NCBI RefSeq assembly: GCF_030123105.1
Contig: NZ_CP126095.1
Location: 6,510,001 to 6,574,000 of the forward strand
Source: Paenibacillus sp. G2S3
Lineage (GTDB): Bacteria > Bacillota > Bacilli > Paenibacillales > Paenibacillaceae
Reading direction: 5' to 3'
DNA length: 64,000 nt
Under the pieces are notes generated by a model. That model was given only the letters and a program-made list of their open reading frames with translations. It had not been told where the DNA came from and made no database searches. The translations under genes were made by a program, and so were the position numbers. Of the stretch, positions 1,215-12,206 are shown in pieces. Positions within the stretch are counted from its first letter, which is position 1. Each line of letters begins with the position of its first letter.

Positions 1215-4200
1215 TTAATTGTTATCAATAAAAGAAATCAATTGCACGAGATTACCTGCAACTTGGTAAGTTAACCCCAGCATGTAAGTTCCCTTCTCCT
1301 CGTTCGATAGATCTATGGTGAATACATCCGGATTAGCTGCCCATTCATTCATATCAAACATGATTTCTTTAGATGTTCTAGTGTTTCTGACCCCAGCTGA
1401 ATTAGGGATCACTTTACTACCATCGAGCCCTTTCACCGGATTGGTCAATTCAACCACAGGTCCCTTTAATTGTCCTACCTCTACCACTTGAGGGTCAGCC
1501 AATAAGCTTGTTAGTTTAGTTAACCCTTGTAATGGGGAGAAATCTGTAATTTCATTTCCAGTAATATCAAGTGTCTCTAGGTTCTTGGCGTACTGTAGCC
1601 CTTCCAAGGATCTAGCTCTTCCGGTCTCACTCGTTAACATTGTAAGGTTATACATATCACCTAATGTTAATTCTCCAGTTACACCTAAAGTGGTCTTGAT
1701 CGAAGCACTTAAATACCGGTCTACAATAGTAATGACTTGCGTAAGATCTATTTCGGTCAGACCCTCTATTGCTTGTTGTAACGCTGCCACGACTGCATCT
1801 ACTTCACTTTGTGTGACAGAAGGATTAGCCAATGCTGCTTCTGCACCCGAGAGGCTGGCCGTAAATGCCGCAATACTCTCAGGTGTGAAGCCTTCTAGAG
1901 AAATTGCTTTCGCCGCTGCAATGGCTTGTTCCAGATCTCCAGTGAATAGGTGATCTCCATTCGCGAAATGTAGTTTAGTTCCTCCCCAAGTAGCATGGTC
2001 AGATCCGTTGCCATTTCCGCCGTCTGTAACGACTAGTTTCAGCTCTTTTGCTCCGTTAATACCCAATTCGATGAATTTCTGCGGATCTCTGGAGCCCATA
2101 ACGCCACTATCGAATTTCTTCTCTCCATCCACAAACACTTCAAAGCTCACCGAACCGACCGTACCATACATTTGTCGATCTACACCCACATAGGAAGTGA
2201 AGTAGTCCGCGTTCTTATCGCTTAGATCGTATACAATCGTCGAGTTGGAGTGCGCTCCAATCCCTCTTTCGTAGGACACTACTTGATTGCTCTCATCGGT
2301 TAATCTCAGCGTATTAGCACTAATAGATTTGTCCTTCAAAGGCGCAGTATAGCTGTTCTGAGTAGAATTCCAGTCGTAGTCCGTCAGATACGTAAAGTCC
2401 GTCATGTCTACTACGGCAATGGTTCTAGTCTTCGTGGTCGTATTTCCATCACTATCGGTTACAGTATAAGTGATCGGATACTTTCCAGCTCTATTGAATT
2501 TAACTTGATCTTGTCCTGAGACCTTCACTTGAGCCGTCAGGTCACCATCTTCCGAATCTATAGCCGAATAACTTTCATTAATATCAATCGCTTGGCCCAC
2601 TTTGGTAGATACTGATTTAGCTATGGTAAGCTCTGGTGTACTGTTCAGAATCATAAACTTTGCATCCGCGAAATCGCCGTGATCTGAAGCATTTCCGTTG
2701 CCTGCATTATCTAACACCAATTTCAGTTCACTTACACCCTTCACAGGGATTTGAGCTAGTTTAGCTTCCGTGCCAAATTTCATCAGTCCGCTATTATACA
2801 CTTCTACCCCATCGGCGAAAATTTTGAAGATCACACTGGAGTTGTTTTGCTCTGGGATATTTCTATCAACCCCTACATATGTTTCAAAATATTCGAAATT
2901 AGCACCCGCCAGATTATACACGATCTCGGAGTTAGCATGCGTTCCTAAACCCTTAGCGAACTCTTTGGTTACGCCATTTACAAGTAGTTTAATCGGATTG
3001 TTAGAGCTTGCCTTATCCTTACGAACAACATTGTAATCCGTTCTTGCCGACTGCCAAGCTATATCACTCAGATATTTACTAGCGCTGTATACAACGATCG
3101 TTCTGGTCTGTACCGCTGTATTGCCATCACGATCTGTAACTGACAGTTCTACGTTGTAAGTGCCTGTTTTACTTGAAGTGAACCCGTTCTTTTTTACTTC
3201 AACCGCTTCAATCAAATTACCATCTTCCGTATCAACGGCAGTAACATCGGTCAAAACATCAAATTCACTGTTCAATTTCACGAAGGTTGTCTCTTCCGGC
3301 ACTGTGATGGTCGGCTTGCTTGAAGTATTCGTAAACTTTGCATCCGCCCATACCGTATGGTCTGAAGCATTGCCATCTGTAGCATCTGTGGTAACCAGCT
3401 TTACTTCGCGCGCGTCAGTCACTGGTATTTTTACAAATTCATGCTCTGTACCTGCCTGGAAAACATCACTCGAGAATTTCTTCTCTCCATCTATATACAC
3501 TTCAAAGGTTGCAGAGGATGGTTTTCCTTTCATCGCTTGATCAATTCCGATGTAGCTTTCAAAGAAATCATAACCTTTACCCTCAATATCATAAACAACC
3601 TCAGAGTTCGCATGTACACCGATTCCCTTGGTATAGGTCGCAGCTAACCCTTGTCGAACAAGGGTTATGACTCCACCAGAGACGGCTTTGTCTTTCTTTA
3701 ATTCACCCCAGCCAACAACGACTGACTTGGCATTAAGATCCGAAAGATAAGCATAGTCACTCGTTACCGTAACCTGTGTGGTCTTGGTTTCTGTAACCCC
3801 TTCGTTCTTCACTTCATATACCACTTCGTAGTCACCTTTTTGCGTTACATCGACGGTATTCGCTTTCAGGGTGACATTAGCAGTAATATCATTCCCTTGA
3901 TAGTTAGTCGCTTTTACATAGTTCATCGGATCAAAGGGTTGATTTAGCTTTAACGTAATTTGATCTTCAACAGACAGCGCTGGCTTAAAGGCTTTAACCT
4001 GTACTGGCTTCAGTGGGTTCAGCTTCTTATCATAGCCAACAATCTTGTACGTATAATTGATGCTGCTGTCTACACTCTTGTCCACGAACTGATCAGTGCC
4101 TGTAAACCCTACTAACTTATCGTCTCTATACACTTCATATCCTAAGAAATCTTTCTTAAGATCCTTATTCATACTGAAGCTTAAGGTGTTTGATTTAGCA

Positions 4201-6356
4201 GTAGCGTTAGGCGTGATATTAACCTTAATCGCAACATTCTTATCTGCTATTCCTGTTCCCTCATAATGAACCACTGAATTGTTTAAATACCATAGCTTTT
4301 TCGGTGCTGGGTATTTAGCTAATTTCTCTTTCGTTTCAGGATTCACAGTGAAGCCATGTCTGGCAAAATAGCTACTTAAGTCTAACCCCAGCACTTCAGA
4401 GGAGAACTCCACCAAATACTGCTGCTTGGAATTGTCACCGTTCGGAAGGGAGACCTTCCGCTCGCGGTACATCCTTGTCAATTCTGTCCAGTATCCCGGA
4501 TGCGCCAACTCCAACTGCCAATAGGCTCCCAGCTGAGCAAATAAGCCCTGCTGATTCATAACCACTTTATTTTCTTGGATCACATATTTATAAATATCAC
4601 TTTCAAAAGGAATACGAGTATCCATCGAGTCCGCATGGACTGACATCAGCATAGACACCATATTATTGGTTACTTCGCCATATTCTCGTTCACCCATAGC
4701 CAAGCGATGCCCAATTTCATGATTCAATCCCCAGCCTGGATAGACTTTGTTAAAATCACCTAACATTGTCCCCACGGTTCCAAGTTGGATCCCTGTATGA
4801 TCTCCCGCTGCATACATCGCACCATAAGGCTGCATCAATCGAATATTCTCACGAATTAGCTTGGCATCATGAATCACACTACTGCCATCCAAGCCATAGA
4901 AGTCAAAGATCGTCTTCATCCAAGTATCATAGCCGGTTACGGTGCCCAGCGGATCATTTCCTTCTGTAATAAACTTGTTATAAGCTTCTGTCGCAGTTCC
5001 TGTGAAAATAACATGCTCGCTGACCATTTCCACCACATCGATGAGCTTGCGATCTTGAACATTCGGATGCGCAGCTTTATCTTCATCTAATTTTTGCTTG
5101 TAGGTGGTTAGGAAGGCTTTAAATTGTTCAGGATCCATGGTCTTGGTCATCATAGGGATCTTTGTGAACCCTTCGAATCGGATCAGTGGTGCCTTCCCTT
5201 GTTCCTCAGCTGTATAGGGATTGACGATATACACTGTACCGCCCTTAGTCACTTCATGTGCATAATAACTATTCGTCGCAAATTCAGGAACGGTTATTGT
5301 GTTTTTACCTGGACGCAATTTCACGCTGCTAGCCCAAACGTTCCAAGCCGCCTCTTGTTGGGAAAATACTAAAGAAGGCAATTTATCGCTCGAAGCAGCA
5401 TCTACATACACATTGATCGTATCTCCAGGCATTGCAACGAGCCCCGTAGGCTGGTTGTTCGTACCGAAACCAATTCTCAGGTTTTCTTGCGCATGCTTTT
5501 TCATATCACCACGTTGTTCGGCCTCAATAATGGTGCCTTCGGTTTGAACCTCTCCATTCACTAGCTTCTTAGCCAAATCCAAAGAATCTTTAAGGATGGG
5601 ATAGAGCGGATGTACTTTTGCCGCTTCTTCTAATTGATTGATCGCTTCGACGCTATTATAAGCAGGAACAACCGCACTCATCGTTCCATCTGTAAACAAG
5701 CTTTTCATCTTAGCGGATACGGTATCCTCTTTATAAAAAGAAAATTCAGCCGCACTCGCCCAATCTTGGTTAGCTTTTTTGAAGACAAATTTAAGTCTCT
5801 TGAAGGCTGTGGGTGCAAACTGAATCTCTACAACGTCACCTGCTCCGCCTTTATATTCTCCAGAGGATACTAGCGTATAATCTCCTGCATCCGTAGTTGA
5901 GCCATAAATATCAAATTCCTGAGCAAACCCCTTCCCCTTTGCACTGGATTGTCTTGCAGCGTATACGATTCTATTTAATTCAGTGGACTCATTGAAAACA
6001 AAGACAACCTCATTCGTGAACGTTGAACTGTTCGGTTTGCCCGTTTCCCAATGCGTACTCATATCGCCATCAATAGCCTTAGCTATAGGTGAACCTGAGT
6101 AGTTGCCACCGTTATTTGTGATGGACTTAATATTCGCAGGATTCATTCTAAAAACATCATTATAAGCGCTTAGGATAGCCTTGCCGTACAGATCAAACGG
6201 AATAACTGACGCATTGCTTAATAGCTCAGCCTTGCTTTGTACTACAGTCTTCACTACACTTACCTTGCTTACATCACTTGCTAAAGCATAACCTGCCTCA
6301 CTCGAAAAACTGGCTAACATGGCTGCCGATGTAGCGATCGCAATCATTTTTTTCAT
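1215..6356 (-). CDS. large secreted M60-type (enhancin-like) metallopeptidase with NPCBM modules
   Basis: 1713 residues with a Sec signal peptide (1-27). Visible modules: a discoidin/F5-8-type C domain (about 75-208, with DGDMSTHWETG); an M60/enhancin-like peptidase domain (about 285-620) with the zinc motif HEIGH at 546-550 and a downstream Glu near 561 (GEVTNN); an FN3-like domain (703-790); then alternating DUF5011-like Ig domains (795-867, 1014-1091, 1240-1317) and NPCBM-like carbohydrate-binding modules (868-1008, 1093-1235, 1320-1465); a FIVAR-like helical domain (1473-1535); and a short leucine-rich segment (about 1538-1625). The M60 family is known for cleaving O-glycosylated proteins such as mucins, so this is probably a glycoprotein-degrading exoenzyme. 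No SLH, LPXTG or dockerin anchor is visible. The ATG follows GGGGGG at good spacing. Its 5' leader contains a c-di-GMP-I riboswitch, a terminator and a copy of the dispersed repeat. Confidence 0.88.
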   Translation of the reverse strand: MKKMIAIATSAAMLASFSSEAGYALASDVSKVSVVKTVVQSKAELLSNASVIPFDLYGKAILSAYNDVFRMNPANIKSITNNGGNYSGSPIAKAIDGDMSTHWETGKPNSSTFTNEVVFVFNESTELNRIVYAARQSSAKGKGFAQEFDIYGSTTDAGDYTLVSSGEYKGGAGDVVEIQFAPTAFKRLKFVFKKANQDWASAAEFSFYKEDTVSAKMKSLFTDGTMSAVVPAYNSVEAINQLEEAAKVHPLYPILKDSLDLAKKLVNGEVQTEGTIIEAEQRGDMKKHAQENLRIGFGTNNQPTGLVAMPGDTINVYVDAASSDKLPSLVFSQQEAAWNVWASSVKLRPGKNTITVPEFATNSYYAHEVTKGGTVYIVNPYTAEEQGKAPLIRFEGFTKIPMMTKTMDPEQFKAFLTTYKQKLDEDKAAHPNVQDRKLIDVVEMVSEHVIFTGTATEAYNKFITEGNDPLGTVTGYDTWMKTIFDFYGLDGSSVIHDAKLIRENIRLMQPYGAMYAAGDHTGIQLGTVGTMLGDFNKVYPGWGLNHEIGHRLAMGEREYGEVTNNMVSMLMSVHADSMDTRIPFESDIYKYVIQENKVVMNQQGLFAQLGAYWQLELAHPGYWTELTRMYRERKVSLPNGDNSKQQYLVEFSSEVLGLDLSSYFARHGFTVNPETKEKLAKYPAPKKLWYLNNSVVHYEGTGIADKNVAIKVNITPNATAKSNTLSFSMNKDLKKDFLGYEVYRDDKLVGFTGTDQFVDKSVDSSINYTYKIVGYDKKLNPLKPVQVKAFKPALSVEDQITLKLNQPFDPMNYVKATNYQGNDITANVTLKANTVDVTQKGDYEVVYEVKNEGVTETKTTQVTVTSDYAYLSDLNAKSVVVGWGELKKDKAVSGGVITLVRQGLAATYTKGIGVHANSEVVYDIEGKGYDFFESYIGIDQAMKGKPSSATFEVYIDGEKKFSSDVFQAGTEHEFVKIPVTDAREVKLVTTDATDGNASDHTVWADAKFTNTSSKPTITVPEETTFVKLNSEFDVLTDVTAVDTEDGNLIEAVEVKKNGFTSSKTGTYNVELSVTDRDGNTAVQTRTIVVYSASKYLSDIAWQSARTDYNVVRKDKASSNNPIKLLVNGVTKEFAKGLGTHANSEIVYNLAGANFEYFETYVGVDRNIPEQNNSSVIFKIFADGVEVYNSGLMKFGTEAKLAQIPVKGVSELKLVLDNAGNGNASDHGDFADAKFMILNSTPELTIAKSVSTKVGQAIDINESYSAIDSEDGDLTAQVKVSGQDQVKFNRAGKYPITYTVTDSDGNTTTKTRTIAVVDMTDFTYLTDYDWNSTQNSYTAPLKDKSISANTLRLTDESNQVVSYERGIGAHSNSTIVYDLSDKNADYFTSYVGVDRQMYGTVGSVSFEVFVDGEKKFDSGVMGSRDPQKFIELGINGAKELKLVVTDGGNGNGSDHATWGGTKLHFANGDHLFTGDLEQAIAAAKAISLEGFTPESIAAFTASLSGAEAALANPSVTQSEVDAVVAALQQAIEGLTEIDLTQVITIVDRYLSASIKTTLGVTGELTLGDMYNLTMLTSETGRARSLEGLQYAKNLETLDITGNEITDFSPLQGLTKLTSLLADPQVVEVGQLKGPVVELTNPVKGLDGSKVIPNSAGVRNTRTSKEIMFDMNEWAANPDVFTIDLSNEEKGTYMLGLTYQVAGNLVQLISFIDNN

Positions 6357-6407
6357 CTTTTCTACCCCCCAGATGTATTATGAATCTCTTCCAAGCCTAA
6401 AATGGGC

Positions 6408-6437
6408 ACAAAAAAAACTACCCCAAAAGAGTAGCTT
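6408..6437 (-). terminator. intrinsic terminator in the leader of the M60 gene
   Basis: On the minus strand CTACTC-TTTTG-GGGTAG forms a 6-bp stem (extended by A/G-T pairs) followed by a run of eight T. It lies about 50 nt before the M60 start codon and downstream of the c-di-GMP aptamer, so it could be the riboswitch expression platform, or it could end transcripts from the upstream gene at 6858-7430. Confidence 0.7.
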
Positions 6438-6489
6438 GATTGCGTATAAAGTCGCCTAAAAATTAAGACTTAATTTTTATTAAACCTTA

Positions 6490-6593
6490 ACAAGCATAAA
6501 CGCCTTCGGCGTCCTTATAAGGACGATAAGGGTTTAAGCGAGAAATATAAGAGATTAAGTATAGGTGCATAACTTAACCTTTCTTATATTTTA
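6490..6593 (+). repeat. dispersed structured repeat, copy 1
   Basis: About 100-bp element that starts CAAGCATAAACGCC and ends CTTATATTT. Shared design with copies at 13012, 28178 and 40588: a short hairpin ACGCC-TTC-GGCGT, a palindrome GTCCTTATAAGGAC, outer AAACGC/GCGTTT pairing, and a long AT-rich right hairpin (AAATATAAG / CTTATATTT). This copy sits inside the transcribed leader of the M60 gene between the c-di-GMP aptamer and the distal terminator. One outer pair is lost here (GGGTTT instead of GCGTTT). No open reading frame and no obvious target duplication. Confidence 0.85.
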
Positions 6594-6609
6594 ACAAAAA
6601 GCGTTACAC

Positions 6610-6719
6610 ACTCTTTGGCAGCTGGCTGACAATAGTTATGATAACCTTAGTCCCTATAGCTTTGCGTCCCTACATTTCCATAGGTTTGCCTATGAAGTTT
6701 CGAATACATTACAAAGAGT
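6610..6719 (-). promoter_or_regulatory. c-di-GMP-I (GEMM-I) riboswitch aptamer
   Basis: Read on the minus strand the segment has the GEMM-I core in order: AUAGGCAAACCUAUG, then GGAAAUGUAGGGACGCAAAG, then GGGACUAAGG and the second arm ending in GUCAGCCAGCUGCC. The core elements GCAAACC, GGGACGCAAAGC and CUAAGG are the recognisable ligand-binding and tetraloop-receptor parts. A perfect 8-bp P1 stem closes it: ACTCTTTG (6712-6719) with CAAAGAGT (6610-6617). The 3' P1 strand can instead pair downstream: CAAAGAGTG with CGCTTTTTG (hairpin 6595-6617), which is mutually exclusive with P1 and hints at a ligand-stabilised ON switch. It precedes the M60 peptidase gene, and the window also encodes GGDEF and EAL enzymes. 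Assignment rests on motif recognition, not on a covariance-model search. Confidence 0.85.
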
Positions 6720-7538: not shown

Positions 7539-8528
7539 TCACTGTTTGGGAATAGGGTCAGGCTTTCCAAATAAATATCCCTGAAACAACTGATAACCAC
7601 TCTGCTTAAGCCATTCAAAATCCTCTCTAAACTCCACACCTTCTGCTAAGGGAACAGATTGGATCTCTAAAGCCTTTTCTAAAAATTGTTTAGCTATTTT
7701 CTGTTTGTTCGGATCGCTGGACACACCCTGAACATATTTCATATCCAGCTTCATGTAATGGGGTTTAAGCTCCAATAACATCTCGATCGTGCTGAAGCCT
7801 TCGCCAACATCATCTAAAGCGTATTCAAATCCCCGATCCTTGTAATATGTCAAAATCGATTTCAAATGAGCGAGATCATCGACTTTCTCCGTCTCAACAA
7901 CTTCAAAGACAAAAAGAGAGGGATCGACGCCTAATTGATTGGCCAATTCAACCGTTGATCGTAAGCAAAACTCTGGAGCGTAAATCGACGTTGGGATAAA
8001 ATTAATAAACGTTTTTTTATTTAAGGGTGCAGCATATTTTACAGCAGTCATTCTACATAACCGATCTAAAGCATATAAACGTCCACGATTTCGTGCCGCC
8101 GCAAAAATCTCATTAGGATAGATAAGGGACCCATCTTCTTTTTTAAATCTGGATAGGAGCTCGTATGCAAAAATCTCCTCCCGTACGTTCACAATCGGTT
8201 GGAAGTGACAAGTAACTAAGCCCTTAGTTATAACCTCATCAATCCACTCCATATCAAGCACAGTGGATAATTCGGATAGAGGTCTCCATGTTTGGTCATC
8301 TATACGGAATTCAATCTGCTCCGACTCCATATGGTCAATACAGAAATCTAGAAAATCCCGCGCTCCAGACTCCTTAATCGTAATCACATTTTCTTCTACC
8401 TTATGTATCGTATTACTTCTACTCAAATGATGAATAACCTCAGGTAAAATCCTTAGATTAAGCTCACCATGAGCCTTGATTTCAAAATTCAGCTCTCTTA
8501 CTACACAATGATTACATGCCACATTCAT
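7539..8528 (-). CDS. EAL-domain cyclic-di-GMP phosphodiesterase
   Basis: 329 residues: a ~95-residue N-terminal region containing CNHC near residue 5 and no recognised domain, then a full EAL domain. Key positions are present: ELL at 123-125 (in place of EAL, a tolerated variant), Asn176 (FINFIP), Glu209 (FVFEVVE), the metal pair Asp239-Asp240 (ALDDVGEG), Lys260 (MKLDMKYV) and Glu296 (AEGVE), with the closing FQGYLFGKP. It is therefore probably an active enzyme hydrolysing c-di-GMP to pGpG. It is 49 bp downstream of the Crp/Fnr regulator gene and likely co-transcribed. It may oppose the GGDEF cyclase at 10265-11254 and affect the c-di-GMP riboswitch before the M60 gene. Confidence 0.9.
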   Translation of the reverse strand: MNVACNHCVVRELNFEIKAHGELNLRILPEVIHHLSRSNTIHKVEENVITIKESGARDFLDFCIDHMESEQIEFRIDDQTWRPLSELSTVLDMEWIDEVITKGLVTCHFQPIVNVREEIFAYELLSRFKKEDGSLIYPNEIFAAARNRGRLYALDRLCRMTAVKYAAPLNKKTFINFIPTSIYAPEFCLRSTVELANQLGVDPSLFVFEVVETEKVDDLAHLKSILTYYKDRGFEYALDDVGEGFSTIEMLLELKPHYMKLDMKYVQGVSSDPNKQKIAKQFLEKALEIQSVPLAEGVEFREDFEWLKQSGYQLFQGYLFGKPDPIPKQ

Positions 8529-8577: not shown

Positions 8578-9261
8578 TCAATCGAAATCCGTATACTCCA
8601 GTAAATACGTCGGGTCTAACACGGTGATCTGCTGATGTTGAATATCAATAATCTTTTGCGCTTGCAGATCTTTAAGCACAAGGGTAGCCGTCTCCCTTAA
8701 CGTTCCGATCATATCCGCGAACTGCTGATGGGTCAATCGAAGATCAATCCTCTGTTTGCCTTGCTCCTCTACTCCAAATCTTTGGTATAGTCTTCTCAGC
8801 GTAAATATCGCACGCGCTCTCGCATCATGAAATTTCATTTCATGTAATAACCGATTCGATAAAAATAAACGGTCCATTTGCAGCAGCATCAATTGCTCCT
8901 TAATCAATGGGTAATCGGCAAGCATCTGCTCAAAAGGCTCACGTTTAATCTCAAATAATACAGTATCATTCATAGCCACCGCAGACAGCACTCTTATATT
9001 GGAGGGATGGATCACTTCCAGATCGCCAAAGAAATCGCCTTTTCCAAAAAGATCTACGGTATGCTCTTTCCCTTTCGTGGTAGCGTACACCCTTATGATC
9101 CCCGAATAGATAATGTAGGCATGATCCCCCGGATCTGATTCTGCAAACACCAGGGTCCCCTTGGAATATGCCTTATAAGTGAATAATCTTGAGACCGCCT
9201 TGATCTCCTCCGAGGGTAAACCCTGAAAAAAGCGAATGCCAGTCCAAAAAGAAGCTTCCAT
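8578..9261 (-). CDS. Crp/Fnr-family transcriptional regulator
   Basis: 227 residues: N-terminal cyclic-nucleotide-binding-like beta-barrel (about 10-125, with GDHAYIIYSGIIRVY and GKGDFFGDLEV), a long dimerisation helix (about 125-150) and a C-terminal winged helix (about 155-215, LTHQQFADMIGTLRETATLVLKDL read in two parts as LTHQQFADMIGT and RETATLVLKDL). There is no cluster of cysteines for an Fe-S centre. The effector is unknown; some Crp-like proteins bind c-di-GMP, which would suit the adjacent EAL gene, but that is inference. First gene of a probable two- or three-gene operon with the EAL protein, divergent from the LRR gene. Confidence 0.88.
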   Translation of the reverse strand: MEASFWTGIRFFQGLPSEEIKAVSRLFTYKAYSKGTLVFAESDPGDHAYIIYSGIIRVYATTKGKEHTVDLFGKGDFFGDLEVIHPSNIRVLSAVAMNDTVLFEIKREPFEQMLADYPLIKEQLMLLQMDRLFLSNRLLHEMKFHDARARAIFTLRRLYQRFGVEEQGKQRIDLRLTHQQFADMIGTLRETATLVLKDLQAQKIIDIQHQQITVLDPTYLLEYTDFD

Positions 9262-9396: not shown

Positions 9397-10248
9397 ATGA
9401 AATATAATTTTGACGGAAAAGGACTTATTGAAACGCCAGATGTCGTGTTTGAGAGCAATCCGCTACTAGAACTGAGCATGTACAACAACCATATTAAAGA
9501 GATTCCCGATCAGCTCTTCCTTCATGACGAATTAGAGGTACTTAATTATGCGGGCAATGAAATCGAACGGTTATCCGAGAACATCGGTCGCTTAGTTCAC
9601 CTAAGAATGCTGGATTTAGGCCATAATCGGCTGAAGTTGTTGCCGGAGAGCATTGGCGGATTGCAGGGGTTAGATTCTTTTCTATACCTAAGCAATAATC
9701 AGTTCGAACAGCTGCCGGAGCAGCTCTGTAATCTCCAGAAGCTCAAGTATCTGAACGTAACAGATAATCATCTCAAGCAATTGCCTGCCCGTATAGGGGA
9801 AATGAGCAGTCTGATTGAATTGCGGCTATATTATAATCAGCTAGAACGTCTACCTGATTCGATTACACAAATAATAGGGTTAAGAGAGATTCATCTTTAT
9901 GGTAATCAACTGGTCGTATTGCCAGAGCATTTGGGTGCTTTAGAAGAACTGCGGATACTCGACGTGAGTGATAATCGAATCACTGCGCTGCCTTCATCTA
10001 TCGGTAATTTAAGCAAGTTAAGAAGACTGAACCTTAGAAAAAATAAACTGAATAAACTCCCTGAGGAAATAGGTCAATTAAGCAGCCTTGTTGAGCTTGA
10101 TTTAAGAGATAATAACCTGCAAGAAATTCCGAATTCCCTTTTACAGCTTGAACGATTAGAGAAACTGGATCTAAGATGGAATCACAGCTTGAAGGGAACA
10201 GACATTTTAGAGCAATTAGAGCAAAGAGGATGTATCGTTTATAAATAG
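9397..10248 (+). CDS. leucine-rich-repeat protein
   Basis: About 283 residues from the ATG at 9397, chosen because AAAGGAG lies 7 nt before it; an upstream TTG at 9349 in the same frame has no ribosome binding site. Roughly ten tandem 23-residue repeats fit LxxLPxxIGxLxxLxxLxLxxN, the PIRL/Roco-type consensus, filling the whole protein. No signal peptide, transmembrane segment or GTPase/kinase domain follows, so it is a free-standing cytoplasmic LRR scaffold, presumably a protein-binding surface. Divergent from the Crp/Fnr gene and convergent with the GGDEF gene, 16 bp away. Partner unknown. Confidence 0.85.
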   Translation: MKYNFDGKGLIETPDVVFESNPLLELSMYNNHIKEIPDQLFLHDELEVLNYAGNEIERLSENIGRLVHLRMLDLGHNRLKLLPESIGGLQGLDSFLYLSNNQFEQLPEQLCNLQKLKYLNVTDNHLKQLPARIGEMSSLIELRLYYNQLERLPDSITQIIGLREIHLYGNQLVVLPEHLGALEELRILDVSDNRITALPSSIGNLSKLRRLNLRKNKLNKLPEEIGQLSSLVELDLRDNNLQEIPNSLLQLERLEKLDLRWNHSLKGTDILEQLEQRGCIVYK

Positions 10249-10264
10249 CAAAAAAAGCCCCCTG

Positions 10265-11254
10265 TTAAAGAAGCTTTTCATTCAAATCTATGCTATGCGT
10301 GACGCGGTTTCTTCCCTGTTCTTTAGAGGTATAGAGCGCTTGATCAGCTTTTTGCAGTAGGGTGGCTTCTGAATCGGCTGGAATAAATGTAGCTATACCA
10401 ATGCTCACCGTAATCTGACCCATTTCCCAAGTTGAATACGCGATAGATTGCCGTAATTTCTCGGCTAGGTTCTTTGACTCCGAGATGTCTGTATTAGGTA
10501 AAAGAAGTATGAATTCTTCGCCGCCATATCTAGCCGCAATATCCTCTTGACGAGATTGCAGTTTCAAGATTCTCGCCATTTTCTCCAGCACATAGTCACC
10601 TGTCTGATGCCCATAGGTGTCGTTCACTTTTTTAAAATGATCAATATCTATGATACACAGCGAGAATGGTGCTTGATCCTGGCCATACCTTAAGATCTGC
10701 TCTTCCAGCTTTTCTTGAAGGAACCTTCTATTCTTCAGTCCAGTCAGCTTATCTGTATTAGATAATTCTACTAAAACGGCGTTCATCTCCAGCAGCTCGG
10801 CTTGCTTCTGTTCAATTTCCAAATGAATTCGCTTGAGCTCCGCAAGCGCCTGATCCTTTTCCCAGTAAGCTACTTCTATCTGCTTCTTGGCAGAACGAAG
10901 CTCCAGCTCATAATCGATGCGTTTTCCCATCTGTACCAGGATACAATCAATGATCTCTACTCCCTCACACTCGAACCGTCTGCCGTTCAATAAATATGGA
11001 ATCGCATTCCCTTCGCTATCTTTCAAATTAATAAATAACTCTTCCACCTGTCCATTTAGATTAATAAAAGGATAGAAGTATGAATGAAAAATAAGCTTGT
11101 TTGCCGTAGACATGATAGATTCAAAATGCTTGTGCACCAAATCAACCTGTTTATACCCCATACGGTCCAAGAACGTCTGATTTACATCAATGATTAATCC
11201 TTCATGGGTGATAGAAACATAGCCACAAGGCGCATATCTTAATCGGTCATTCAT
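10265..11254 (-). CDS. PAS-GGDEF diguanylate cyclase (RsbP-like sensor region)
   Basis: 329 residues: an N-terminal PAS domain (about 5-105), a coiled coil (about 115-165) and a GGDEF domain (about 168-320). The active-site loop is GGEEF at 244-248, the catalytic form, and an inhibitory I-site RxxD (RQED, 235-238) lies five residues before it, so it should make c-di-GMP from GTP with product inhibition. No transmembrane segment. The PAS region (APCGYVSITHEGLIIDVN and the stretch into the coiled coil) resembles, from memory, the PAS sensor of RsbP, the partner of RsbQ. The gene lies 40 bp downstream of an RsbQ homologue on the same strand, the same order as rsbQ-rsbP in Bacillus subtilis. Confidence 0.9.
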   Translation of the reverse strand: MNDRLRYAPCGYVSITHEGLIIDVNQTFLDRMGYKQVDLVHKHFESIMSTANKLIFHSYFYPFINLNGQVEELFINLKDSEGNAIPYLLNGRRFECEGVEIIDCILVQMGKRIDYELELRSAKKQIEVAYWEKDQALAELKRIHLEIEQKQAELLEMNAVLVELSNTDKLTGLKNRRFLQEKLEEQILRYGQDQAPFSLCIIDIDHFKKVNDTYGHQTGDYVLEKMARILKLQSRQEDIAARYGGEEFILLLPNTDISESKNLAEKLRQSIAYSTWEMGQITVSIGIATFIPADSEATLLQKADQALYTSKEQGRNRVTHSIDLNEKLL

Positions 11255-11294
11255 GATCTAAATATCCTTTCAACACAGCATAATCTGGTCCAGC

Positions 11295-12086
11295 TTACGT
11301 AAGATATTCATTAATTAAAGTGATGGTCTCCTCAGGATGGCTAATATGTGGGTAGTGACCCTTAGCCTCCATTAACCGGAAGGTGCTATTATTCAAGTAT
11401 TTATGTAAATATTCTCCGGCCGCTATAGGTACGATACTGTCATCCGAGCATTGCAGAATAAGTGTAGGGATTGTAGCCTTAGGGAGATCTTCTCTATGAT
11501 CTGAAAAGAACGTAACTTCTGCAAATTCTCTTGCAATAACAGGATCTGCCGAGATAAAGCTGCGCTCCAGCTCTTTCGTTAACATCGGGTCAGGATTGTT
11601 CATGGCAAGAGGCGCCATAAAGCTAGCCCAGCCAGCAAAATTCATCTCCATCATCTCCAGAAGCTCAGTAATATCACTCTTCTCGAAGCCTCCGAAATAA
11701 GCACCGTCATTTAAATAACATGAAGAAGGACCAATCATAATCATTTTATCAAAATAATCCGGTCGCTCAATCGAAGCAAGCATTCCAATCATAGAGCTAA
11801 TAGAGTGGCCTATAAAAATAATATCTTTGAGTTCCAACATCTCGATGACATCTAATACGTCCTGAACATAGCCGTGGAGTGTATGATATTTTTCTGTTGT
11901 ATATGCACTTAAATCTGAGTTTCCTGAGCCTACATAATCAAATAGAACGATTCGATATTTTTTCTCAAAAGAAGGCGTAATAAACTGCCACATGCTTTGG
12001 TCACACCCAAATCCATGTGCAAAAACAATGGTTCGTTCTCCTTCTCCAATCACTTTCACGTGATTACGCGCCCTAACATCGTTCAT
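11295..12086 (-). CDS. rsbQ-like: RsbQ-family alpha/beta hydrolase
   Basis: 263 residues, single alpha/beta-hydrolase domain with strong resemblance to Bacillus subtilis RsbQ (RNHVKVIGEGE, FGCDQSMW, LFDYVGSGNSDL, SSCYLNDGAYFGGFE, FFSDHREDLPKA). Catalytic triad candidates: Ser95 (GHSIS), Asp215 or Asp216 (QCSDD) and His244 (KGHYPH). RsbQ is known to act with the PAS domain of the phosphatase RsbP in energy-stress activation of sigma-B and belongs to the same fold group as plant KAI2/D14 receptors. Here the next gene is a PAS-GGDEF protein, so the hydrolase probably supplies or processes a small hydrophobic signal for that sensor. Start supported by AAAGGGAG before the ATG. Confidence 0.9.
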   Translation of the reverse strand: MNDVRARNHVKVIGEGERTIVFAHGFGCDQSMWQFITPSFEKKYRIVLFDYVGSGNSDLSAYTTEKYHTLHGYVQDVLDVIEMLELKDIIFIGHSISSMIGMLASIERPDYFDKMIMIGPSSCYLNDGAYFGGFEKSDITELLEMMEMNFAGWASFMAPLAMNNPDPMLTKELERSFISADPVIAREFAEVTFFSDHREDLPKATIPTLILQCSDDSIVPIAAGEYLHKYLNNSTFRLMEAKGHYPHISHPEETITLINEYLT

Positions 12087-12152
12087 TTCATATAACTCCC
12101 TTTATAGTTAGCATTCTCTCTATTTTGAAGGCTTAACCTGGAAATATCAAGA

Positions 12153-12197
12153 GCATAAAAAACTCCGCTAGAGTAATCTCTAGCGGAGTTTTTATGC
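12153..12197. terminator. bidirectional-looking intrinsic terminator
   Basis: Perfect inverted repeat with stem AAAACTCCGCTAGAG and a 4-nt loop, flanked by A and T runs. It lies downstream of the SDR gene (-) and upstream of the rsbQ-like gene (-), separating the two transcription units. Confidence 0.9.
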
Positions 12198-12206
12198 TAT
12201 CTAATT

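Follow-up and report, generated by a model that had tools for sequence, protein, structure and literature searches.

An RsbQ-type hydrolase and a PAS-GGDEF protein encoded side by side in Paenibacillus sp. G2S3: a probable diguanylate-cyclase member of the RsbQ/RsbP-PAS sensing module

In the energy branch of the sigma-B response of Bacillus subtilis, the hydrolase RsbQ acts with RsbP, whose PAS domain is joined through a helical linker to a SpoIIE-type PPM phosphatase. In the available part of their paper, Nadezhdin, Brody and Price (2011; PMC3183031) described 45 adjacent pairs of RsbQ and RsbP-type PAS, in which three kinds of output, phosphatase, histidine kinase or diguanylate cyclase, are fused to the PAS domain. 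The cyclase class was named in both Gram lineages, with A1SVT3 of Psychromonas ingrahamii as an example, and a coiled coil of at least 21 residues was found between PAS and output in 36 members of the set. RsbQ was proposed to touch the PAS domain directly, and either to deliver its product to PAS or to be itself the sensor; the signal of RsbQ was then termed mysterious. The accessible text of a 2025 paper restates this module, cyclases included, and presents an AlphaFold2-predicted complex of two RsbP and two RsbQ molecules, with RsbQ located between the PAS domains and the linkers (PMC12143880). A sigma-B-type phosphatase input module is also found on the GGDEF cyclase MtG of Moorella thermoacetica, which is controlled by RsbT through the RsbU N-terminal domain (Quin et al. 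2012, as cited in PMC12143880). By titles and abstracts, our partial literature search, which may have missed papers, detected no experimental study of a cyclase-type RsbQ pair.

The window analysed here is the stretch of 64,000 nucleotides at bases 6510001-6574000 of the 6.70-Mb single-contig genome of Paenibacillus sp. G2S3, and positions below are those of the window. It carries such a gene pair on the minus strand, together with the following features.

12152-12198, minus strand: strong hairpin with a T run, likely a terminator, between an SDR gene and rsbQ
11295-12086, minus strand: gene for an RsbQ-type alpha/beta hydrolase (rsbQ), 263 aa, best PDB match 1wom
11802-11804, minus strand: codon of Ser95, within the hydrolase gene
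10265-11254, minus strand: gene for an RsbP-type PAS/long helix/GGDEF diguanylate cyclase, 329 aa
10252-10279, minus strand: weaker hairpin, possibly a terminator, where the cyclase gene ends (-10.8 kcal/mol, z -2.9)

The order and spacing of rsbQ-rsbP, which an earlier note on this DNA had recognised, were confirmed: both open reading frames are present and rsbQ is separated from the downstream PAS-GGDEF gene by 40 bases, as compared with 45 for rsbQ-rsbP of Bacillus inaquosorum. Since a strong hairpin precedes rsbQ (-31.1 kcal/mol, z -9.2; absent from the output of the terminator pattern scan) and a weaker one follows the cyclase gene, the two genes probably form a transcript of their own. 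Co-transcription of rsbQ with the upstream SDR gene is unlikely, given the strong terminator-like hairpin between them. The nearest named protein matches are from Paenibacillus, except for one record labelled Acinetobacter sp. CUI P1, in which a PAS identical to that of the window was found.

The best PDB sequence match of the hydrolase is B. subtilis RsbQ (1wom; 355.9 bits, residues 2-262), followed by Olei00960 (241.5 bits) and then by KAI2-like proteins (about 230 bits). Ser95, Asp216 and His244, which we take to be the catalytic triad of an RsbQ-type hydrolase, are invariant across 22 aligned diverse RsbQs. The plant receptors KAI2 and D14 belong to the same hydrolase subfamily, but they signal through F-box partners and not through PAS domains.

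For the second protein of the pair, domains and motifs were assigned as follows.

10910-11254, minus strand: RsbP-type PAS domain, residues 1-115, by homology to the RsbP PAS and class residues
10757-10918, minus strand: long helix of the AlphaFold2 model, residues 113-166, a predicted signalling helix and presumably a coiled coil
10304-10759, minus strand: GGDEF domain, residues 166-317 (PF00990, 154.9 bits)
10541-10552, minus strand: RxxD inhibitory site, residues 235-238 (RQED), five residues ahead of GGEEF
10511-10525, minus strand: GGEEF active-site motif, residues 244-248

The effector was thus verified as a GGDEF domain with both the GGEEF motif and the RxxD site intact. These are the GG(D/E)EF motif and I-site of a predicted active diguanylate cyclase; RxxD stands at the I-site position in 72 of the 103 cyclases examined. 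The PAS domain, the most N-terminal domain of the protein, scored 25.0 bits against PAS_9, below the Pfam cut-off of 27, and 26.3 bits against TIGR00229, above its cut-off of 22.9. Comparison with the 403-aa RsbP of B. inaquosorum gave 39 identities in 115 residues (E 4e-31); the PAS is homologous to that of RsbP, as the earlier note had supposed, and not an unrelated one. A DIT motif at the PAS end was looked for directly in the translation and is absent. No solved structure of an RsbP PAS was recognised by sequence: with E allowed up to 10, the PDB gave nine weak matches (best E 0.3), most of them to the PAS of aryl hydrocarbon receptors. An AlphaFold2 model built on a 60-row alignment predicted PAS, a single helix (113-166) and GGDEF with mean pLDDT of 89.0 and pTM of only 0.55, so that the model is sure as to the domains and not as to their mutual arrangement. 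Its best Foldseek match in the PDB was the LOV-activated diguanylate cyclase 8c05, a light-activated enzyme that likewise consists of a PAS-class sensor, a long helix and GGDEF, but sequence identity is 24% and nothing about the window protein points to flavin or light. To our knowledge, 8c05 has no RsbQ partner.

The window PAS shares the numbering of RsbP without gaps, and retains C10, G11, Y59, P62, E72 and P86, with a basic residue, K53, at position 53. Nine residues typical of the class were picked from RsbP (C10, L13, L48, Q53, F55, C56, Y59, E72 and P86). Four of these, C10, Y59, E72 and P86, are present in the window PAS; the basic K53 is shared with most relatives, and related cyclases also have its V13 (21 of 104) and F56 (99 of 104). 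The window PAS differs from RsbP at position 48, with Met for Leu, and at position 55, with Ile for Phe. Among the 104 cyclase-type PAS domains, position 48 is Met in 85, and position 55 is Phe in 70 and Ile in 22. According to the available text of PMC3183031, F55A gave a null phenotype and disrupted RsbQ binding in B. subtilis; L48A also gave a null phenotype, but the protein level was lowered. Both swaps in the window stay hydrophobic, yet the interface, as predicted from these residues, is not identical to that of B. subtilis. Position 59 is Tyr in 103 of 104 cyclases and in all 13 phosphatases, and His in 27 of 29 kinases. By this alignment, position 59 is a residue linked to output or lineage, within a helix implicated in RsbQ binding. 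The tally left out L061, L068, L070, L117, L162, L171, L181, L205, L215, L227 and L245 (PAS frame broken or not picked automatically) and L090, a duplicate of the window; L071 and L077 (broken), L195, L238 and L240 were kept in the residue alignment and excluded from the tally.

Taken with the cyclase class described in the available part of the 2011 paper, the window pair has RsbQ upstream, an N-terminal RsbP-type PAS, a predicted helical linker and a single GGDEF output, and departs from B. subtilis RsbP (Leu48, Phe55) at Met48 and Ile55; judged from the sequence, it shares most of the module features examined. From B. subtilis RsbQ-RsbP, to which it is alike in homologous hydrolase and PAS, gene order and helical linker, it differs in output: GGDEF replaces the SpoIIE-type phosphatase, which is absent from the pair. 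From MtG it differs in input, which is RsbQ and PAS instead of RsbT and the RsbU N-terminal domain. We are confident in assigning the pair to the RsbQ/RsbP-PAS bipartite sensing module, diguanylate-cyclase class. As the module with cyclase output was published in 2011 (PMC3183031), the pair adds an example to a known system and does not establish a new one. Thus, of the route from RsbQ and PAS to c-di-GMP drawn in the earlier note, the RsbQ/RsbP-type-PAS module with a cyclase output stood; the statement that no system of this kind had been described did not, nor did the membership of the nearby EAL and Crp genes considered below.

Co-occurrence of RsbQ and PAS was then examined in 245 genomes of the window's family, taken to be Paenibacillaceae on the basis of its nearest named protein matches (E up to 1e-50 for RsbQ and up to 1e-12 for PAS). 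RsbQ gave 108 matches in 100 genomes and PAS gave 101 matches in 96 genomes, and RsbQ lies directly upstream on the same strand for 99 of the 101 PAS matches, with a median of 44 bases between match ends. The other two retain RsbQ traces at the upstream place, which in L060 are three pieces (best E 5e-15) and in L059 only a 16-residue tail (E 3e-4). Nine RsbQs lack a PAS match at 1e-12, and eight of them adjoin a weaker PAS; in L061, a shortened PAS is fused to the end of the GGDEF domain beside RsbQ. In L095 (genome G101), rsbQ carries an in-frame stop and the neighbouring PAS-GGDEF gene is intact. This stop and the decayed RsbQs of L059 and L060 indicate that a PAS protein can persist, for a time at least, after RsbQ is lost. 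The two genes are co-inherited, and the pairing proposed in the earlier note held up in the relatives.

For a wider view, named bacterial and archaeal genomes were scanned with a profile, and the best 80 of 574 relatives were taken, so that the loci are biased to kin of the window RsbQ. An RsbP-type PAS adjoins RsbQ at 79 of the 80 loci, from several phyla; the remaining locus, L199, is cut by a contig end, and in L245 the two genes are divergent in orientation. BLAST assigned the outputs at these 79 loci to GGDEF (32), histidine kinase (29), SpoIIE-type phosphatase (14) and stand-alone PAS (2), with L195 and L240 left without assignment; a Pfam scan of 76 proteins (75 from the same loci and that of the window) detected GGDEF in 31, HATPase_c in 28 and SpoIIE in 13. 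As far as these sequences indicate, the RsbQ/PAS adjacency is real, strongly conserved and kept across phyla. On an RsbQ tree of 118 rows (thinned at 85% identity, with L240 entered as a kinase by eye and damaged and unassigned rows excluded), output class switches six times against a shuffled mean of 55.7, but near-copies favour this test and the result therefore says only that output swaps are rare. Between RsbQ and PAS, identity distances were correlated (r 0.82 for 174 pairs, shared ancestry uncorrected). Within 101 cyclase pairs, r was 0.91 for RsbQ-PAS and 0.88 for the RsbQ-GGDEF control, likewise uncorrected, and such distances were rejected as proof of RsbQ-PAS contact for this small margin. 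With these counts, the association known from 45 examples in 2011 becomes nearly one-to-one.

Other genes of c-di-GMP signalling lie near the pair, all within 5 kb as the earlier note had pointed out.

8578-9261: Crp/Fnr regulator, neighbour of the pair
7539-8528: EAL enzyme, neighbour of the pair
6614-6700, minus strand: c-di-GMP-I riboswitch (73.6 bits)

The riboswitch is located upstream of a gene for a 1713-aa protein with Peptidase_M60, NPCBM and surface Ig-like domains, the two together spanning 1215-6700 on the minus strand, and terminator-like sites were detected between them. A local circuit could be drawn from this arrangement, in which c-di-GMP made by the pair is removed by the nearby EAL enzyme and read by the nearby riboswitch for control of the M60-type protein: all parts stand close together and the riboswitch stands ahead of this gene. 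The family-level places, 110 in number (108 RsbQs and the two PAS matches with RsbQ traces), argue against this reading. Only four of them were seen to have the EAL, Crp and LRR neighbours, all close kin and the window's own included, although most of these loci extend about 3 kb past PAS and a farther EAL gene would be missed. The proposal that EAL and Crp belong to the module was accordingly dropped, and a local c-di-GMP circuit was rejected as its defining part. Moreover, the genome contains 19 GGDEF matches, one of them weak, and seven c-di-GMP-I riboswitches, and for this reason no private circuit is implied. We consider the local circuit improbable.

Even less probable is that RsbQ and PAS interact but serve a sigma-B-like regulon, with c-di-GMP as an intermediate. 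An RsbV-RsbW-sigB-like operon with hybrid kinases and a REC-SpoIIE phosphatase is indeed present near 5.84 Mb (L169:1613-3210 and 9592-10773). RsbW scored 160.0 bits against NF003144, over the cut-off of 145, and 139.1 against TIGR01924, whose cut-off is 155.05; the sigma factor scored 207.5 bits against the SigB model, under the cut-off of 315. The phosphatase near this operon, however, has a response-regulator domain and not PAS, and its gene lies some 0.67 Mb away from the pair; an undirected look brought up no link between it and c-di-GMP. RsbP was not found in the genome, where only two SpoIIE-domain matches were detected, one in a frame of 857 aa that presumably encodes SpoIIE itself and one in the smaller REC-SpoIIE gene, both away from the pair. 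Because the sigB-like operon and the REC-SpoIIE phosphatase are present, the module does not simply stand in for a sigma-B branch that was lost.

That the two genes are neighbours by chance or through shared metabolism, the PAS sensing a ligand of its own and the hydrolase being an unrelated esterase, is hardly credible: PAS domains can bind ligands unaided, and in three relatives the PAS protein persists next to an RsbQ that is interrupted or decayed, but the upstream RsbQ of 99 among 101 PAS matches, with RsbQ traces at both exceptions, and the RsbP-type PAS adjoining RsbQ at every one of the 79 readable loci whatever the output, rule out chance pairing.

For the RsbQ/RsbP-PAS module with cyclase output, a working scheme can be drawn by analogy with B. 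subtilis RsbQ-RsbP. RsbQ would bind the PAS domain on its F-alpha face, and perhaps also the linker. RsbQ would turn over a small molecule or bind it in its pocket, and this molecule would change the RsbQ-PAS contact or fill the PAS. The signal would then travel through the dimeric helical linker to the output, where two GGDEF domains would align for c-di-GMP synthesis, with feedback by the product at the I-site. RsbQ probably controls the neighbouring predicted c-di-GMP-making enzyme, whose output probably enters the general c-di-GMP pool; the readers of this pool would include the seven c-di-GMP-I riboswitches.

Besides PAS-GGDEF genes, RsbQ was found beside PAS proteins of other forms. At the 110 family-level places, 77 one-frame PAS-GGDEF genes, five split or damaged ones (L061, L070, L071, L077 and L117), one PAS-PAS-histidine kinase (L168) and 27 stand-alone PAS genes were counted; a looser one-frame rule, which L061 and L077 pass, gives 79 instead of 77. 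PAS histidine kinases beside RsbQ were located at L168:1999-3438 in the window's family and at L219:4803-6236 in Paenibacillus turpanensis; the available text of the 2011 paper places kinase outputs in Gram-negatives (PMC3183031). The stand-alone forms are as follows.

L062-L069, L072-L076, L078-L089, L059 and L060: stand-alone PAS, family-level places
L227 and L238: stand-alone PAS, named genomes (best 80 of 574 relatives)
L078:2828-3955, L081:1579-2709 and L083:2702-3832: REC-SpoIIE phosphatase directly downstream of RsbQ and stand-alone PAS

The 27 proteins are about 110-224 aa long; all lack an output domain, and some have a tail that looks helical; 25 are encoded beside RsbQ, and two (L059 and L060) beside its decayed trace. 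The view that they are merely broken PAS-GGDEF genes was rejected: the frame closes 2-110 residues past the match in the 26 placed by tblastn, and no GGDEF match at 1e-3 was detected in any of the 27 stretches. The remaining one, L064, was placed by BLASTP only (E 3.6e-9). Pairwise dN/dS was 0.07-0.35 for 11 chosen pairs, rough values with dS above 1 in seven, and the genes compared look to be under purifying selection. No downstream partner common to them was found. Besides the three REC-SpoIIE cases, in which RsbP is possibly split into separate proteins, the downstream genes examined vary: L089 has a hybrid kinase, L063 and L086 have kinases, L065 has PhoX at a greater distance, and L082, by the translation alone, has a prolyl-tRNA-synthetase-like gene. 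In the 2011 set, as far as the available text goes, two PAS proteins without output were attributed to a contig end and a frameshift, and a stand-alone form is not described there as a class (PMC3183031).

We tentatively suggest, as a reading that we hold to be less probable than its negation, that RsbQ and PAS form a fully detachable input unit, in which a stand-alone PAS would serve as an RsbQ-loaded adaptor acting in trans on separate effectors. Such effectors could be the downstream REC-SpoIIE phosphatase in three genomes, or a PAS-GGDEF paralogue where one is present. RsbQ is a bacterial protein akin to the receptors for karrikins and strigolactones in plants. A cyclase version of the Paenibacillus type would allow its activity to be read chemically and directly, from the c-di-GMP made in the presence or absence of RsbQ and of candidate ligands, which is less involved than the sigma-B cascade. 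If the adaptor reading is true, the cyclase of the window would be one branch of a multi-output RsbQ network.
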